Positions 27,034 to 62,363 of a stretch of DNA of 64,000 nt are shown here, one piece after another. Origin of the DNA: a virus; the IMG/VR virus record IMGVR_UViG_3300025030_000038, positions 1 to 64,000 of that record; one strand, written 5' to 3'. A model generated the notes under the pieces. That model ran no database searches, was not told the DNA's origin, and saw nothing but the letters and a program-made list of their open reading frames with translations. How positions within the stretch are numbered: position 1 is the first letter of the stretch; each line of letters starts with the position of its first letter. The translations under genes and the position numbers were made by a program.

Positions 27034-27284
27034 CAATCGAGATTGTCTGTCGTGACTATGGGAATCCAGGTTGCTTAGGAGTCCCGGACGAGCGGTACAC
27101 AATGGACTTCAGTGACGTGGAGCCAGGAGCCAAGATTTATTGGTGTACCCACTGTGGACCAGAAGCCCATGCCATGGCGGACATCCTAGAGAATACCATT
27201 GCTACACGGGGCAAGGAGTTTACGGACAAGCTCGATGGGCTTATCCAAGATGCCGAGGAGGCACTGAGGCGGGAACGGAACTGA
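27030..27284 (+). CDS. small Cys-containing protein, 84 aa
   Basis: ATG 27030 overlaps the previous stop. It has a CRDYGNPGC segment, a YWCTHCGPEAH motif (possible half zinc-ribbon) and a C-terminal charged helix. Similar short proteins are common in phages. Function unknown. Confidence 0.65.
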   Translation: MTIEIVCRDYGNPGCLGVPDERYTMDFSDVEPGAKIYWCTHCGPEAHAMADILENTIATRGKEFTDKLDGLIQDAEEALRRERN

Positions 27285-27316
27285 GCCTAACGCTTCTATC
27301 CCCCTACCAGAATGAC

Positions 27317-28444
27317 ATGTCCCAAGTTCCCCAAGCCGACCGGGTAGCCTCCCGGTTCCTCCAAGCCAAAGGGGTATCCCTCCTCCCAGACTTCAAGAAA
27401 GCCCAGGAAGCCTTCGAGAAGAAGGATATGGACCCTATGGCGAAGTTTGGGAAGACCGTTCTGAGCCTGATCTTCCCAACTGATAGGACCACTGGGGATT
27501 TTGGGGCGCCAGTACCTGCGGATTGGTACTTGGCCCTTGGAACCGCCAAGCGCAATGCAATCAATGCCCTCCAGAAGGATGTCCGTGAATTCTTGGACAT
27601 GCGTCATGGGATCCTCAATTCGGACATGTTCCAATCCGTTTGGATCAGAAGGTTCGAGACCTGGGCCAAACCCCTACGCACCTTGGAAATTGCCAGTGCA
27701 GCAACGGATGAAGACCGGATCATCAAACGGGGACCTTTCGAGATCGTCCCGATGCCAGGAGTCCCAGTCTCAAAAATTGAGGGGGCCCTCAAAGCTCTCG
27801 ATGAGGCAACTGGAAAAATCCAGAGGGTCTTCCCTGAGGTTCTGTATGGTAAGGTACACCTTTCCACACACCTGAATAGCAAATCAGCGGCTTGGTATAC
27901 CCCCTCTGGAGATCAGTTCTATGTAAGTGTGAACGCCCAATCTAGGTTTGGGGATGTCCACACAATAGCTCATGAACTGGGGCACCGGTACCAACACCGG
28001 TTCCTCAGCGCAGAGCTGACCCGAGAGTTTTTTGACCTGTCCACCCGCACGGTCTACGAGGAAGTGCTGTTCGACAAGGACTTACGCAATCGGATGGCTG
28101 ATGAGGTAGTGTCGCTCACCAAGGCCCGCGGACTAGGTAAGCCCATGGTCCCCATGTCCCCAGAACTGGTCATGTGGTTGAAGTCCCCTGACGGTCCCCG
28201 AGAGGCCCGGCAACTCACCACTGAGTTCCTCTCCGGGAAGATCGATGAGAAGGAACTCCACGAAGGCATTGCTGGCAAGAAGGACGTGACCCTCATGACT
28301 GGCAAGGTCCTACGGGAACCCATTGCCGTCACACCCTATGGAGCCACCAAATGGACCGAAAACTTCGCCGAAGCCTTCGCCCATCTGGTCTTAGGAATGC
28401 CCCTGCCAAACGAGATTGTTGAATTCATGGCCAAGTTGAAGTAG
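27317..28444 (+). CDS. zincin-type metalloprotease
   Basis: The product is 375 aa. The active-site helix HTIAHELGHRYQHRF (about 220-234) contains HExxH. The N-terminus has the tag DRVASRFLQAK seen in other phage proteins. A C-terminal region (about 300-375) is rich in acidic and helical residues and includes WTENFAEAFAHLVLG, which could give the third zinc ligand. It may process phage proteins or act in the virion. It is the last gene of the long plus-strand block. Confidence 0.75.
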   Translation: MSQVPQADRVASRFLQAKGVSLLPDFKKAQEAFEKKDMDPMAKFGKTVLSLIFPTDRTTGDFGAPVPADWYLALGTAKRNAINALQKDVREFLDMRHGILNSDMFQSVWIRRFETWAKPLRTLEIASAATDEDRIIKRGPFEIVPMPGVPVSKIEGALKALDEATGKIQRVFPEVLYGKVHLSTHLNSKSAAWYTPSGDQFYVSVNAQSRFGDVHTIAHELGHRYQHRFLSAELTREFFDLSTRTVYEEVLFDKDLRNRMADEVVSLTKARGLGKPMVPMSPELVMWLKSPDGPREARQLTTEFLSGKIDEKELHEGIAGKKDVTLMTGKVLREPIAVTPYGATKWTENFAEAFAHLVLGMPLPNEIVEFMAKLK

Positions 28445-28533
28445 CCGTTTGATGAGCTGGTGAATCCGCTAGTTAGCCAATTGATAGCCCTTCGGTAGAG
28501 GCTGCCCATTGACCAAGCCCCACCGGAGGCAAA

Positions 28534-29181
28534 ATGTCAAGAACATGGACCGACACTCAGCTAATTCAGGCCGTAACCACGAAGTTTTCCATGTCAGAGG
28601 TGCTGAGGGAATTGGGGCTTTACCCCAATAGCAGTAATGCGAAGACTATCCAAACGCATATGGGGCGCTTAGGGTTAAAGTCCGAGCATTGGGCGGTACA
28701 CTTCAAGAAATGGTCAGAGGAACAACTCACACGGGCCGTGGCTACCCAATTTACCATGGCCATGGTCTTAAGGGAATTGGGGTTGTCCCCTGTTGGGGGG
28801 AACTACAAGACCATTCGGCAACATATTCTCCGGTTGGGTTTGAGTACCACGCACTGGACAGGACAGGGACACTTGAAGGGGAAAACCCACTCGTGGTCAG
28901 TTAAGATGCCATTGTCAGAGTTATTGGTTGAGAATAGCACCTATGGGACCAACCACCTTAGTAAACGTCTTGTCAAAGAGGGAGTACTAAGATATGAATG
29001 CTCTGACCCGGACTGCCTTTTGACCACATGGAAGGGGAAGCCAATTTCCTTGCACCTAGACCACAAGAATGGGGTCCCCACGGACCATCGCCTGGAAAAC
29101 CTGAGGTTACTGTGCCCCAACTGCCACTCACAGACTCCCACGTACTGTGGAAAAAATATAGGTGGCCCTACCGGGACTTGA
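28534..29181 (+). CDS. HNH endonuclease with two N-terminal repeats, ending in a tRNA gene
   Basis: The product is 215 aa. Residues about 4-53 and 60-108 are two similar units (WTDTQLIQAV / WSEEQLTRAV, SEVLRELGL / AMVLRELGL, KTI, RLGL...HW), probably DNA-binding helices. The C-terminal HNH core has CSDPDC, HLDHKNG, ENLRLLCPNCHSQ. The last 19 nt lie within the 3' end of the opposite-strand tRNA-Leu(TAA), and the TGA stop is the T-loop sequence in reverse. The same layout occurs at 61476-62096. Confidence 0.85.
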   Translation: MSRTWTDTQLIQAVTTKFSMSEVLRELGLYPNSSNAKTIQTHMGRLGLKSEHWAVHFKKWSEEQLTRAVATQFTMAMVLRELGLSPVGGNYKTIRQHILRLGLSTTHWTGQGHLKGKTHSWSVKMPLSELLVENSTYGTNHLSKRLVKEGVLRYECSDPDCLLTTWKGKPISLHLDHKNGVPTDHRLENLRLLCPNCHSQTPTYCGKNIGGPTGT

Positions 29182-29245
29182 ACCCGGATGCCTCGCGGCC
29201 TCCCGTTTTAAGTGGGAGAATGTCTGCCAATTCCATCACAGGGCC
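29163..29245 (-). tRNA. tRNA-Leu (anticodon TAA)
   Basis: On the minus strand the 7-bp acceptor stem (GGCCCTG with TAGGGCC), a loop CTTAAAA, long variable arm and T-arm with TTCAAGT are clear. The discriminator is A and no CCA is encoded. It is the 3'-most gene of the Leu array and its 3' end is overlapped by an HNH gene on the other strand. The anticodon stem has one A/C mismatch. Confidence 0.85.
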
Positions 29246-29249
29246 GTAG

Positions 29250-29331
29250 TGGGTTATAACGGACTTGAACCGATACCCCTTGCGGGACACCATTTTGAAT
29301 GGTGCGTGGCTGCCAATTTCACCAATAACCC
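29250..29331 (-). tRNA. tRNA-Leu (anticodon CAA)
   Basis: Acceptor GGGTTAT pairs with ATAACCC; anticodon stem CACCA/TGGTG encloses TTCAAAA. A long variable arm (TCCCGCAAGGGG) fits leucine. CCA is not encoded. Confidence 0.88.
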
Positions 29332-29373
29332 AGGAAATCATTGTTGTTTTAGTCTTCACCTACTTCCAGCTGT

Positions 29374-29458
29374 TGGTGCGAGAAAGGGGACTTGAACCCC
29401 TACACCTTGCGGTACCGGATCCTAAGTCCGGCGCGTCTGCCAATTCCGCCATCCTCGC
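29374..29458 (-). tRNA. tRNA-Leu (anticodon TAG)
   Basis: Acceptor GCGAGGA pairs with TTCTCGC; stem CCGGA/TCCGG encloses CTTAGGA. The variable arm is long and CCA is encoded. Confidence 0.9.
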
Positions 29459-29477
29459 GAAAACATTAAAGAAACAG

Positions 29478-29559
29478 TGCATGAGACAGGGATCGAACCT
29501 GCACGTCTTTCGACATAGGACTCTCATTCCTACGTGGCTACCAGTTACACCACTCATGC
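29478..29559 (-). tRNA. tRNA-Leu (anticodon GAG)
   Basis: Acceptor GCATGAG pairs with CTCATGC; stem TAGGA/TCCTA encloses ATGAGAG. The variable arm TGTCGAAAGACG is long. CCA is not encoded. Confidence 0.87.
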
Positions 29560-29563
29560 AGAG

Positions 29564-29651
29564 TGGCCGGGAAGGGCATCGAACCCTCACGGGAAGTTAC
29601 TCCCACTGGCTTCTGAGACCAGCATGTCTTCCAAAATTCCATCACCCGGCC
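29564..29651 (-). tRNA. tRNA-Leu (anticodon CAG)
   Basis: Acceptor GGCCGGG pairs with CCCGGCC; stem CTGGT/GCCAG encloses CTCAGAA. A long variable arm is present. With the four preceding genes it completes the set of five Leu anticodons. Confidence 0.88.
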
Positions 29652-29666
29652 AAGCTACCTACTTGC

Positions 29667-29714
29667 TGCCGGGGACCTCAGACCTACGCACGAGTGCATA
29701 AATCCACCCCGGCA
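29667..29714 (-). ncRNA. structured leader hairpin upstream of the Leu array
   Basis: TGCCGGGG (29667-29674 on plus) and CCCCGGCA (29707-29714) form a perfect 8-bp stem; the 32-nt loop contains a smaller GCAC/GTGC stem. It lies between the promoter and the first tRNA and overlaps the possible leader ORF. Confidence 0.4.
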
Positions 29715-30503: not shown

Positions 30504-31092
30504 CGGGCTGAATCTCCTTCAGGTACTTCTCACAGGCGTCAATGTCCTTTTGCATCTCTTGGGCACACGAAGTGTCGCGACTGAGGTTTTTCTGAGCCTT
30601 CTCCAGGGAGGTCAGGTCTGCCTGATCCCCTGTGATAACAGCAGAAATCGTGGAAGACCAGAAGGCGTCTGAGATAGTCTTCTTGTTCTTCTCAATACTC
30701 ACCAAGGTCTCGGCCAGATCCACCTTGCACTCCTCGATATACTTGGTGAGGCTCTTGGCATAACAGCCTTTGCACCAGCACGTCCACCAACCCCGAGGGG
30801 ATTCCAGGATCTCGCCTGGAGCGCCACATTCATCACAGGTACGGGCAGCGACCTCTTCCGCTACCCGAATGCGCTCCTTGACGCTTGCGGAGGACACGCC
30901 AATATACACCCTGAGACCGCCGAATTTTTCCTTCAGCTGGTGTAGGTCCCGGTCCCATCCCAGAGCAATCATGTCAGCGAACAGCTGATCCACAAGGGGA
31001 ACCCAGCCATCTCCCACGTAGGCCCTACAACGTGGGTTGGGGATGTTGTACTTCTGGAGGAGGGCCTCTACCTTGTCGTCCTTGTCATTCAT
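30496..31092 (-). CDS. zinc-binding phage protein with KFGGLRVY motif
   Basis: The product is 198 aa. The segment VGDGWVPLVDQLFADMIALG, then DLHQLKEKFGGLRVYIG and a CDECGAPG...GWWTCWCKGC ribbon (about 88-112) is common in bacterial and phage proteins of unknown function. A C-terminal coiled coil follows. It probably binds zinc. Confidence 0.7.
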   Translation of the reverse strand: MNDKDDKVEALLQKYNIPNPRCRAYVGDGWVPLVDQLFADMIALGWDRDLHQLKEKFGGLRVYIGVSSASVKERIRVAEEVAARTCDECGAPGEILESPRGWWTCWCKGCYAKSLTKYIEECKVDLAETLVSIEKNKKTISDAFWSSTISAVITGDQADLTSLEKAQKNLSRDTSCAQEMQKDIDACEKYLKEIQPDE

Positions 31093-36365: not shown

Positions 36366-37108
36366 GGTCCCGGAGCCCACCCATGAATTGCTTCCGCAAG
36401 TGCTCGGGTACGTTCAGGGTCCAGGACCCCGAAGTCAGATTCAATACCGGTAGCCACCAAGTAGGCATCCACGTAGGGCAGATATTGGTGGACATTCTCG
36501 GGGGTGACGCCACTGGCCAGGGCCATCGGATGGTTCCCGATAGCCTCTCGGATTGCACGTACTTTGGATAGCTGGGCGGCAACCCCTGTCCCACGACCTG
36601 AGGTGGTCACCACATCCACGAAGCCCATTGCAGCTCTGGCCGTTTCAGCAAGGTCCGCAAGTTCAACTTCCGTCTGTGTCTTGAAGGCAGTTCCTCCAAA
36701 GTACAGGCCCCCCCAGTTGTGGCGATTCCTGGTCTCAAGGAAGGTACTCCCTGCGGCATACCGTTCATCCGCAGTTCGATGGTCTACCCCTGCATCATCG
36801 GACCAGACTCCATCAATCCCATACAGGGCTGCTAGCCCCACGGCCTCCTCGGGGGTGTACGAAAGGGCATTGAGGCCCGTCCACATCCCTGGATAGCCTG
36901 CCAGGAGGGGGAGCCGTGGCAACAGGTCTCCCATAATGGCCTTAACGGTCATCCCCTGGTTGATCAGGATGACACCATCCGCCCCTGCCTCAATGGCCAC
37001 TTCCACGGACGACAATGCCTCTTGGAGGGTAGGCGTGTGAATGACCGGTAGGAAGACCCGGGGGCGCTTGAAGACCCTCAGGATGGCGTTAGGCTTAAGG
37101 GCCTTCAT
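36362..37108 (-). CDS. TIM-barrel protein, BtpA-like
   Basis: The product is 248 aa from ATG 37108, coupled to the stop upstream. The order of strands (VFLPVIHTP, GADGVILIN, GYPGMWTGLNALS, GIDGVWSDDAGVD, GLYFGGTAFKTQTEV, VDVVTTSGRGTG, MALASGVTPENV, AYLVATGIESDFGVLD) fits a BtpA/SgcQ-type barrel. It may bind a phosphorylated sugar or base. Function in a phage is unknown. Confidence 0.6.
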   Translation of the reverse strand: MKALKPNAILRVFKRPRVFLPVIHTPTLQEALSSVEVAIEAGADGVILINQGMTVKAIMGDLLPRLPLLAGYPGMWTGLNALSYTPEEAVGLAALYGIDGVWSDDAGVDHRTADERYAAGSTFLETRNRHNWGGLYFGGTAFKTQTEVELADLAETARAAMGFVDVVTTSGRGTGVAAQLSKVRAIREAIGNHPMALASGVTPENVHQYLPYVDAYLVATGIESDFGVLDPERTRALAEAIHGWAPGP

Positions 37109-47059: not shown

Positions 47060-48612
47060 TTTTGTCCTCATCCACACTCGATTGGAAGAAATCGACCTGG
47101 AGTATCCGCTAACGACCTTATGGGTGGTACTATAAGGTATACCCTATGAAGTCGAGGCTTACATTACCGGATCCGGAAACCAACTTGGGGAAGTTGGCTC
47201 AGTTGGACTTACTCCACAGGGAGTACATCAAGTACCTACAATCGTGTATTGAGAAGATGGTCTCCGACCGGATTATCAGCCTCGCCCCATCAGCTCGACG
47301 GACATACTTCGCTAAATCGGAGTCCCTCTCGTCACAAATCGTCAAGAATGCTCAAATGCAGGCTCAAGCGATGATGCTTACTTGGGCTTCTGGGGTCTAC
47401 GGTCGAGTCCTCAAAGGAAAGATCTCCTCGGAGAGAGTCACTGAAAAGAACCCTGATGGCATTTACAGTGAATTGGAGGCTATTCAGCTCTACACGATTG
47501 GGAAGTACCATCTGACCCACGGAGGGAAATTCGGGAAGGGGTCCATCAGCCAAGAATTGGTTGACCTATATTGGTCGTGGATGTGGGATCCCGAGTTGGT
47601 GGGAAATCCTCCAACGATCAGTGAACGGTTTCCCATGCAACTCTCGGAGATGACTTGCTCTATCGAGGAATCCAAGTCCTTACACTTCAAGGGTTGGTGG
47701 CTCCGTTTCTCCACCCTCACTCGATACAAAACCGTCGTAATACCACTCAAGGCATCTCCGTTCCTTCGTAGTCCCAAGGATGTCCAGTTGACGGTCATGG
47801 CCCAAAAAACGCCAGTTGGGAGTTGGGTCTTCCAGTTCTCCGAGAAGTCTGAGGACCCTATCTTCGATGGTTCGGCCGGTAAGTTGGGGGTTGACGTTGG
47901 ACTGAATGTCTTAGCGGCCACTTCAAGTGGAACCCTTTATGGTCAACGGTTTAAGACCAAGTTCAATAGGCTCCACAAACGAGTTCAGTCTATTCGAGCT
48001 AACAGGAAACGACAGGGCTTCTTGGAGGACTCCAGGCGTCTTTGGGCCTTGGAGCGAAGGCTCTCTGGCCAGATCAAGACGGCCACTAATACAATAGCCA
48101 ATCAGCTAGTTAAGAGCCACCCGAGCACGACCTTCGTGGTTGAGGACTTGGACCTATCGGAAACCAAAGGGTCGAAGAGGTTTGCCTACCGAGCCCTCCA
48201 ATTAAGCCTCGAATGCAAAGCAGTCACCGAGAAGGTGAACCCGGCTTACACGAGTCAGGAATGCCCCTCGTGTCACTATGTCTCCCGGAGTAACCGCAAG
48301 GGAGTCAAGTTTGTCTGCCAGAGTTGTGGCAGGAAGAGTCATGCGGATTTCATTGGAGGATCCAATCTGCTCGGACGTTCCGAGGACAAACAGATTGGGT
48401 TGAAAACCCCAGTGAAATCGGTGAAAGCGATCTTGGAGGAAAGGCACCGCTTGCGGTTCAGATCACCAAGATCCCTGTTAGTTGGAGCTCAAACCGATGA
48501 GCCCGGAGCTTACTGTGGGGGTATTGATCGAAAGGTCATCACCCGCATAGCTCCAAAACAATCGATACCCGTTCGTCCCTCACGGGATGGATGCATATAG
48601 ATTGTCAACGGT
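47060..48612 (+). mobile_element. solo TnpB element of IS200/IS605 type (boundaries approximate)
   Basis: The element consists of a left part with a perfect 6-bp hairpin (TCGATT/AATCGA at 47078-47095), the tnpB gene and a right end whose last 21 nt (48592-48612) recur at 2125-2145. No tnpA was found. A CCCGT/ACGGG stem near 48570-48585 may be the right-end or omega-RNA hairpin. The true left edge was not located. Confidence 0.6.
47146..48600 (+). CDS. tnpB: TnpB RNA-guided nuclease (IS605 family)
   Basis: The product is 484 aa, longer than many TnpB (about 400). RuvC residues are present: D in GVDVGLN, E in FVVEDLDL and D in HADFIGGSNLL. A zinc finger CPSCHY...CQSCGRK lies in front. It is the ancestor type of Cas12 and cuts DNA with an omega-RNA guide that reads from the 3' end of the gene. 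It is on the plus strand between minus-strand genes. An imperfect palindrome (GGGTGG...ATACCC) overlaps the start. The protein appears intact. Confidence 0.85.
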   Translation: MKSRLTLPDPETNLGKLAQLDLLHREYIKYLQSCIEKMVSDRIISLAPSARRTYFAKSESLSSQIVKNAQMQAQAMMLTWASGVYGRVLKGKISSERVTEKNPDGIYSELEAIQLYTIGKYHLTHGGKFGKGSISQELVDLYWSWMWDPELVGNPPTISERFPMQLSEMTCSIEESKSLHFKGWWLRFSTLTRYKTVVIPLKASPFLRSPKDVQLTVMAQKTPVGSWVFQFSEKSEDPIFDGSAGKLGVDVGLNVLAATSSGTLYGQRFKTKFNRLHKRVQSIRANRKRQGFLEDSRRLWALERRLSGQIKTATNTIANQLVKSHPSTTFVVEDLDLSETKGSKRFAYRALQLSLECKAVTEKVNPAYTSQECPSCHYVSRSNRKGVKFVCQSCGRKSHADFIGGSNLLGRSEDKQIGLKTPVKSVKAILEERHRLRFRSPRSLLVGAQTDEPGAYCGGIDRKVITRIAPKQSIPVRPSRDGCI

Positions 48613-61106: not shown

Positions 61107-61388
61107 TTACTCCTCTACCTGGAGGATCCGCTGGAACACTGCTTCGATTTCCGCCCGCCCCTCAGCGTTGGAAATGGGGCCCTTGAACTCGTTCATGAAG
61201 TTCCAGACGGCTTCGTGGACCTCCCGCATCGTCATTGGCGGCTGCCACGTAGCCTTGTTGGCCTGTAGCTCCTCCAAGCAGTCTCGACAGATGTAGAGCT
61301 GGTAATGGGTGCCATCTACCTTCAATCTCAACAGGCTGTCGCACAAGATATTGTCGCAACCATCACGCTCGCACGCCATAACGCCCAT
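61107..61388 (-). CDS. small zinc-ribbon protein, 93 aa
   Basis: [11 protein letters not shown] and CRDCLEEL ligands form a ribbon; the remainder is helical ([15 protein letters not shown]). It follows a GAGTAAC leader with an AGGAG ribosome-binding site. ATG 61379 is an alternative start. Function unknown. Confidence 0.65.
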
Positions 61389-61475
61389 TGTAAGGTCTCC
61401 TGGGGAAGTTACTCTCGTGGTAGCCTAAAGGGTGCAGAGCCGTGTTGGCTATTCTGGCTATGCTACCCACAGGGT

Positions 61476-62096
61476 ATGAAACTCTGTCAAAAATGTGGTT
61501 CCAGAATCCCAGCCCATATCGTGATTGAGGGTAAGAAAAGGAACCTCAAGAACAGGCTGTACTGCTTTGAATGCTCACCCTTCAAGGCTCACAATACCAA
61601 AGTGTTGGCTCCTAGCCCACACTCTCCTACCCCCACCCCCACGGATAAGCGGCGGCATACATCTGACCACCAACCAATCCAGCAACTTACCTGTGAACGA
61701 TGTGCCAGAGTCTACCTCCACAATGTCAAGCATAGATCCGGGCATACTCTCCGTTACTGTAACAGTTGTATGGTCAACACACGTCGGTTTGAGCGCAAAC
61801 TCAAGTGTATTGAGTATATGGGAGGTGAGTGCCAGAAGTGTGGGTACTCAAAATGTTCACGAGCCTTCCATTTCCACCACCTCGACCCCTCTTTGAAGTC
61901 CTGGCAAATTAGCGGGGGCCATTGTAGAAAATGGGAGCGAGTCAAAGAGGAGCTTGATAAGTGTGTTCTCCTATGTTCCAATTGCCACATGGAGCTTGAG
62001 GAGGAACTGGAGGTACTCAAGCGAGGCCCACGTACAACAGTTCTCAATGCCCTAAAAAAAGCGATCTCTGAAAAAAGTGGGCACACTGGAACTTGA
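61476..62096 (+). CDS. HNH endonuclease ending within the tRNA-Ile(TAT) gene
   Basis: The 206-aa product has three ribbon-like C..C sets (CQKCGS, CERCARV, CNSCM) and an HNH core (CQKCGYSKCSRAFHFHHLDPS..., LLCSNCHMELEE). Its last 19 nt lie inside the 3' end of the opposite-strand tRNA-Ile(TAT), whose T-loop supplies the TGA stop. It could be a homing endonuclease linked to the intron in that tRNA. A weak promoter is possible near 61440. Confidence 0.85.
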   Translation: MKLCQKCGSRIPAHIVIEGKKRNLKNRLYCFECSPFKAHNTKVLAPSPHSPTPTPTDKRRHTSDHQPIQQLTCERCARVYLHNVKHRSGHTLRYCNSCMVNTRRFERKLKCIEYMGGECQKCGYSKCSRAFHFHHLDPSLKSWQISGGHCRKWERVKEELDKCVLLCSNCHMELEEELEVLKRGPRTTVLNALKKAISEKSGHTGT

Positions 62097-62363
62097 ATCC
62101 AGGACCTTCCGCTTATCTTCCTACTCCCAATTTCGTGGGCCGGGGCTCCCCGTTGTAGGCTGGACTATATCTTCACCATCTCAGGTGCCTGGGTATCTAG
62201 TCTCTACGGCGCTCTCCCTTTTCGGAAGTTCCCTCGGTATTGTCTCCAGCATGACCCGCTGAGAGTTCCACCGATATCCCCAGATCCACCTACAGGATTC
62301 ACGTTCCCCTGTAGGGCTCATACACTAAGGCGGATGCTCTGACCAAAACTGAGCTATGTGCCC
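62078..62363 (-). tRNA. tRNA-Ile (anticodon TAT), interrupted by a group I intron
   Basis: The exons 62327-62363 (37 nt) and 62078-62116 (39 nt) join to a full tRNA: acceptor GGGCACA/TGTGCCC, D-arm GCTC/GAGC, TCCGC/GCGGA enclosing CTTATAA, T-arm CTGGA/TCCAG with TTCAAGT. The intron is placed after U34 (CTT|intron|ATAA), consistent with the usual last exon U and a final intron G. CCA is not encoded. Confidence 0.8.
62117..62326 (-). other. group I self-splicing intron (about 210 nt)
   Basis: The minus-strand intron carries the conserved core AAGATATAGTCC (62162-62173) and a P7 partner GACTAG (62197-62202). It starts with AGTG after exon U and ends with G. It has no ORF. Small size and position in an anticodon loop are typical of tRNA group I introns. 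Splicing is inferred from structure only. Confidence 0.8.

Follow-up and report, generated by a model that had tools for sequence, protein, structure and literature searches.

An HNH gene packed against a tRNA-Leu array

The 64,000 nucleotides (nt) of viral DNA analysed here (positions 1 to 64,000 of IMG/VR record IMGVR_UViG_3300025030_000038, hereafter the window) carry a gene for an HNH endonuclease at 28534..29181 on the + strand, which runs tail to tail into a tRNA-Leu(TAA) gene at 29161..29245 on the - strand. The HNH gene has an ATG start, an intact open reading frame (ORF) of 215 amino acids, its own Shine-Dalgarno sequence and a TGA stop codon at 29179-29181. Its tRNA partner was placed by ARAGORN and matches the Rfam tRNA model with 36 bits at 29163-29245, the lowest tRNA score within the window; a mismatch, A31-C39, closes its anticodon loop. 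Four more tRNA-Leu genes (CAA, TAG, GAG and CAG), found by tRNA scan at 29249..29651 on the - strand, continue the Leu array. Positions 28400-29700 and 16000-40000 are 100% identical to part of LR745208.1, an uncultured metagenome phage of 485,040 nt. It is rather likely that the enzyme is a free-standing homing endonuclease whose family has specialised in the tRNA genes of phages, that its clade is aimed at tRNA-Leu, chiefly tRNA-Leu(UAA), and that it probably moves with a cleavage-resistant replacement tRNA.

The protein matches phrog_10822 (E 2.7e-54, residues 58-209), a profile that covers helix-turn-helix (HTH) and HNH regions, and also phrog_14736 (E 9e-25); Pfam HNH_3 and HNH score slightly under cut-off. 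Its N-terminal half holds a tandem internal duplication of 51 residues (alignment score 143 against a shuffled maximum of 47). The first HTH module (residues 3-53, 28540..28692, three helices in the model) is the extra copy, while the second (residues 58-108, 28705..28857), where the family alignment starts, is common to the whole family. An HNH nuclease domain with a Cys4 zinc site follows at residues 156-201 (28999..29136), as delimited by family alignments. In alignments A6 and A7, C156, C161, H177, N189, C194, P195, N196, C197 and H198 are invariant. With all catalytic and zinc residues conserved, the protein reads as an HNH (beta-beta-alpha-metal) nuclease. An AlphaFold2 model, computed with the rows of annotated phages left out of the input, reaches a predicted local distance difference test (pLDDT) score of 88.6 and resembles predicted viral HNH proteins in a structure search. 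Solved structures gave no sequence match better than E 0.5 and no confident Protein Data Bank fold match. Profile searches match HNH and HTH families only, with no GIY-YIG domain.

An intron search around 28400-29260 returned no match, and by its sequence context the HNH gene is free-standing, outside any intron or intein. Upstream, a predicted RNA hairpin (28487..28530, + strand) covers the Shine-Dalgarno sequence GGAGG (28525-28529). The predicted fold of 28445-28533 has an energy of -30 kcal/mol (z -2.5), and the unpaired probability at the ribosome site is 0.09; the 17 other window genes tested have 0.25-0.65, which makes this site by far the most hidden of them. A hairpin that hides the ribosome site is an arrangement known in T4 homing endonucleases (PMC2988022). 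It is strong in the window and inconsistent among HNH relatives. The gene upstream of this hairpin (27140-28444, + strand) encodes a HEXXH-like motif (HTIAHELGHRYQHRF) and is perhaps a zinc metalloprotease; its relatives are found at 30% only.

A stop codon shared with the tRNA T-loop

The HNH gene and tRNA-Leu(TAA) overlap at their 3' ends over 29163..29181, a segment that takes in the discriminator, the acceptor strand, the T-stem and part of the T-loop. Counted on the tRNA body, from discriminator to T-loop, the overlap is 19 nt; by ARAGORN coordinates it is 21 nt. The TGA that closes the HNH frame is the antisense of T-loop residues U55-C56-A57. ORF and tRNA coordinates both agree with the initial annotation, which had the gene take its stop codon from this T-loop in a 19-nt overlap.

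A second HNH gene in the window (site 1), assigned to phrog_2255 by profile match, has the same 19-nt overlap, as that annotation also claimed. Its ORF spans 61305-62096 on the + strand, with an in-frame ATG at 61476 that fits the family alignment (61476..62096), and positions 62078-62096 lie within a tRNA-Ile(TAT) gene (62077..62363, - strand). This tRNA, recovered by an intron-permitting scan, is missed by default tRNA scans because its anticodon loop is split by a 210-nt group I intron (about 62117-62326; Rfam Intron_gpI E 8.5e-4, under the gathering score). The intron contains no ORF, and the HNH gene overlaps the downstream exon.

The endings GPTGT and GHTGT ascribed earlier to the two products are confirmed, and read here as GGPTGT for the window HNH protein and SGHTGT for site 1. 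These tails are alike because both are read from conserved T-arm letters. The equal overlaps likewise follow from frame and tRNA anatomy, since this T-loop TGA always gives 19 nt of tRNA body. For tRNAs with the T-loop TTCAA, this very TGA ends about 29% of the antisense frames; over all tRNAs the share is 7.3%. The match in overlap length between the two sites is therefore a mild coincidence and no evidence for T-arm targeting, and the T-loop stop is a by-product of tail-to-tail packing. The adjacency of both HNH genes to tRNAs at all is far from chance.

The two genes were earlier proposed to reflect convergent targeting, not duplication. A recent duplication from site 1 is ruled out: BLASTP aligns only 12 residues of the two proteins (E 0.045), which belong to different PHROGs (phrog_10822 and phrog_2255) and are unrelated, and no recent duplicate with its own flanks is seen. 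Each family stands independently at tRNA genes, with 16 of 17 relatives of the site-1 gene adjoining one, so that convergence holds at the level of families. Elsewhere in the tRNA-rich region, a TnpB/OrfB-like protein is encoded at 47146-48600 on the + strand (Pfam Cas12f1-like_TNB, E 4e-11). In LR745208.1, ARAGORN predicts a tRNA with anticodon TTA, which would read the stop codon UAA (222464-222540, locus L107), and another with the four-base anticodon TTTA (87763-87837, locus L101); both are possible suppressors.

tRNA genes as insertion sites of HNH relatives

Relatives of the window gene in phrog_10822 lie beside tRNA genes far more often than other genes of the same loci do. A tRNA is found within 120 base pairs (bp) of 58 of the 70 close, de-duplicated relatives, against 170 of 483 control ORFs (odds ratio 8.9). 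The larger set comprises 149 non-redundant relatives. Of these, 126 lie no more than 150 bp from a tRNA and 43 end within a tRNA gene; the end falls at U8-A9-G10 when the tRNA is downstream, or in the T-arm when it is convergent. A T-loop TGA stop like that of the window recurs at loci L166, L185, L197, L167 and L213. The one locus found for phrog_9645, a candidate negative-control HNH family, is too few to act as a control.

The isotype of the neighbouring tRNA follows protein phylogeny. Among the closest relatives of the window gene, 14 of 16 usable ones lie beside tRNA-Leu(TAA), where tRNAs drawn at random from these loci would give 3.9. Of 127 comparisons between nearest relatives, 83 agree in isotype (null 30 ± 5); once loci of similar flanks are collapsed, 50 of 90 do (null 17.5 ± 4.2). 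On the protein tree the Leu label changes 6 times, compared with 18.9 when labels are shuffled; the family trees contain clusters for Leu, Gln, Trp, Gly and Asn, and the clade of the window gene is the tRNA-Leu clade. Within the Leu rows, side and strand relative to the tRNA change at least 20 times, and 25 of 55 rows sit at the tRNA 5' end. As tRNA identity is kept while side and strand wander, the tRNA gene itself is indicated as the target. The long variable arm that characterises leucine tRNAs is missing from many of the phage tRNA-Leu(UAA) genes beside HNH genes (L018, L039, L048, L058, L132, L149, L171, L190 and others).

These patterns also bear on the idea that HNH genes merely settle in insertion-tolerant gaps of tRNA arrays, the tRNA not being a target and the shared stop codon being an accident of tight packing. 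Tolerant gaps are plentiful in tRNA-rich phages, 35% of the control ORFs lie within 120 bp of a tRNA too, and stops within tRNAs are expected once a frame runs into one. Such an explanation is nevertheless improbable, for the neighbouring isotype tracks protein phylogeny much more closely than if each gene picked at random from the tRNAs of its locus, and insertions land inside tRNA genes or replace them, which is no haven.

Comparison of filled and empty sites in relatives, as the initial annotation had suggested, shows such insertions directly. In Staphylococcus phage phiSA12, compared with phage K, the HNH gene interrupts tRNA-Trp within the anticodon loop and takes its stop codon TAG from the tRNA. 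In the Pseudomonas Pakpunavirus phages LCK69 and B8, compared with MAG1 and PAK_P1, it replaces tRNA-Trp, of which the 3' end remains; the nearest tree relative of this gene abuts tRNA-Trp. T5 hegA (F-TflIV) occupies the place that tRNA-Leu(UAA) holds in HdH2 and HildyBeyeler, leaving the 3' remnant CCTACCA, and the annotated T5 tRNA region contains no other tRNA-Leu(UAA). In Felixounavirus pSJ21, ten nt of the 5' end of one tRNA-Leu(UAG) are followed by the HNH gene and then by a different tRNA-Leu(UAG), 62% identical, which occurs alone in KEP2. A gene of the site-1 type behaves comparably in PAK_P4 (L290, 905-1315), where it is inserted precisely at the tRNA-Lys 5' end and reads as far as a TAA in the anticodon loop. 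The relatives' pairs support the tRNA gene as homing target; the window itself has no empty relative for such an alignment. As separate observations, PaoP5 Orf50, an HNH protein reported as required for packaging (PMC12846349), may be encoded by a gene of the same region as the PAK_P4 HNH, and SHSML-45 (L301, 60-300) carries a different tRNA(CAU) at the position of T5 tRNA-Ile(CAU), a same-anticodon replacement at one site.

The junctions also speak to the earlier proposal that the T-arm is the homing target. SegB, a homing endonuclease of T4 and T6, cuts inside tRNA genes, and its motif RAWTSGAAC (PMC13096335) reads as an antisense T-arm, the element in which the stop codon of the window gene falls; judged by this resemblance, T-arm recognition may hold for SegB and be possible for other nucleases. 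In relatives of the window gene, breaks and replacements lie in the anticodon arm (phiSA12 and locus L320), or the tRNA is removed from its 5' side (T5, LCK69/B8) or from 10 nt into the gene (pSJ21), and many Leu rows sit at the 5' end, as noted above. A near-universal T-loop, moreover, would give no isotype preference, as is the case for SegB and unlike the phrog_10822 family. The T-arm is thus not supported as the target, and its recognition and cleavage by the window enzyme is unlikely.

A benefit to the phage could instead keep the gene, if it amplifies or exchanges tRNA genes against tRNA-targeting host defences. SegB amplifies tRNA-Tyr against Septu (PMC13096335), and phage tRNAs are described as countering tRNA-cutting defences in work referenced by PMC12846349. 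Against this stand the destruction of the tRNA by insertion in several phages and a patchy distribution among close relatives, as is characteristic of selfish genes: of 123 Pakpunavirus records, 7 contain 80% or more of the HNH-bearing stretch used as query. Maintenance for such a benefit has a low probability as the explanation, but is compatible with homing.

In small phages related to locus L185 the geometry of the window recurs exactly, with a replacement tRNA. Some of them (L309, L312-L316 and L319) have a native tRNA-Gln(TTG) behind the terminase gene and no HNH gene. In L307 and L320 this place is taken by a foreign tRNA-Gln(TTG) and a convergent HNH gene whose end lies in the T-arm of that tRNA; remnants of the native tRNA-Gln come next. 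The remnant is AGCCA in L307; in L320 it is the 3' part, starting at the anticodon stem, with 38 nt identical to L315 and a small indel at the anticodon. Compared between phages, the cassette tRNA-Gln genes have a similarity of 75-97%; compared with the native gene in close relatives, the similarity is 65-73%. The arrangement is a replacement cassette of tail-to-tail HNH gene and tRNA, and by family, clade and geometry the window HNH gene and tRNA-Leu(TAA) are most likely such a unit.

Several results weigh against homing with a replacement tRNA in the window. Many inner forks of the family tree have weak support, and in phiSA12, T5 and Pakpunavirus the tRNA is lost without a substitute in the stretch examined. 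Close relatives of the window phage were not found, the flank proteins giving only 30-39% matches without common context and no empty site. Upstream of the HNH gene (28445-28533) there is no tRNA remnant by local matching (best score 30, shuffled mean 29, maximum 37) or by Rfam. Nor was a common cassette tRNA found for the Leu clade, where the window tRNA-Leu(TAA) has a best similarity of 0.78 to tRNAs beside related HNH genes. A peculiarity of the anticodon stem in HNH-linked tRNA-Leu(TAA) genes was considered and discarded; linked and unlinked stems look alike, so resistance is unreadable from stem mismatches.

A putative cut-and-replace element among known endonucleases

If the window gene homes with its tRNA, the enzyme would act in a mixed infection and cut the tRNA-Leu gene of the competitor phage; the most likely cut position is the anticodon arm, the bearer of isoacceptor identity. 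Repair from the donor would bring in the endonuclease gene together with the tRNA-Leu(TAA) linked to it, which would be diverged enough to escape cutting and would take the place of the destroyed gene. Through tail-to-tail packing, with the T-loop supplying the stop codon, the HNH gene and the tRNA would be inherited as one unit, while the hairpin over the ribosome site probably holds expression low or late. More tentatively, an HNH gene and its overlapping tRNA might form a natural cut-and-replace element that destroys a rival isoacceptor gene, replaces it with a diverged, cut-resistant tRNA of the same isoacceptor, is locked together by the common stop codon and drives the turnover of phage tRNAs; the window would hold one for tRNA-Leu(UAA).

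It is an old question what makes phages keep, lose or exchange tRNA genes, and the usual answer is codon usage or evasion of defences. A widespread nuclease family that selects tRNA genes according to their isoacceptor, disrupts or replaces them and is able to bring a substitute would add a third, selfish cause. It would also explain the odd observation of nuclease genes that end inside tRNA genes. Ties between a nuclease and its neighbour are known from T4, in which the free-standing nucleases SegF and SegG are linked to gene 56 and gene 32, respectively, and the neighbour's allele is co-inherited (PMC2988022). The likeness to the window gene ends there, as these neighbours are protein genes and the stop codon is unshared.

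The window gene would work like SegB and other free-standing phage endonucleases. SegB stands among the tRNA genes of T4 and T6, cuts them and spreads or amplifies the tRNA region, under the control of a hairpin (PMC2988022; PMC13096335). It shares with the window gene this setting and a hairpin; it differs in being a GIY-YIG enzyme, with no isotype preference (PMC13096335) or replacement-tRNA cassette reported. In mycobacteriophages of cluster M, HNH genes in tRNA arrays are suspected of shaping tRNA repertoires (Pope 2014, cited in PMC5966550 and PMC6409571), and the citing passages report co-location alone, describing neither a preference for an isotype nor junctions. The openly readable literature searched, a scope outside which fall subscription papers including Akulenko 2004 and Brok-Volchanskaya 2008, contained no report of isotype specificity, of insertion into the anticodon loop or of a replacement-tRNA cassette.

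A characterised relative is HegA (F-TflIV) of T5, a tRNA-region endonuclease that is cited as site-specific (Akulenko 2004, in PMC3326045). It belongs to the same family as the window protein (phrog_14736/10822). In the T5 genome (AY543070, locus L305) two further nuclease genes, hegD (F-TflII) and hegC (F-TflI), end inside a pseudo-tRNA-Gln(CUG) (29344-29419) and a tRNA-Ser(GGA) (30942-31035), respectively, and the F-TflIV gene lies at the site of the lost tRNA-Leu(UAA) (36379-37062). Unlike the window gene, hegA has the same orientation as the tRNA array and stands in the place of a tRNA-Leu(UAA) of which no copy is kept in the annotated tRNA region, whereas the window gene encodes two HTH modules and faces an intact, tail-to-tail tRNA-Leu(TAA). 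Read in this way, the F-TflIV gene of T5 would sit on the grave of a tRNA-Leu(UAA) gene.
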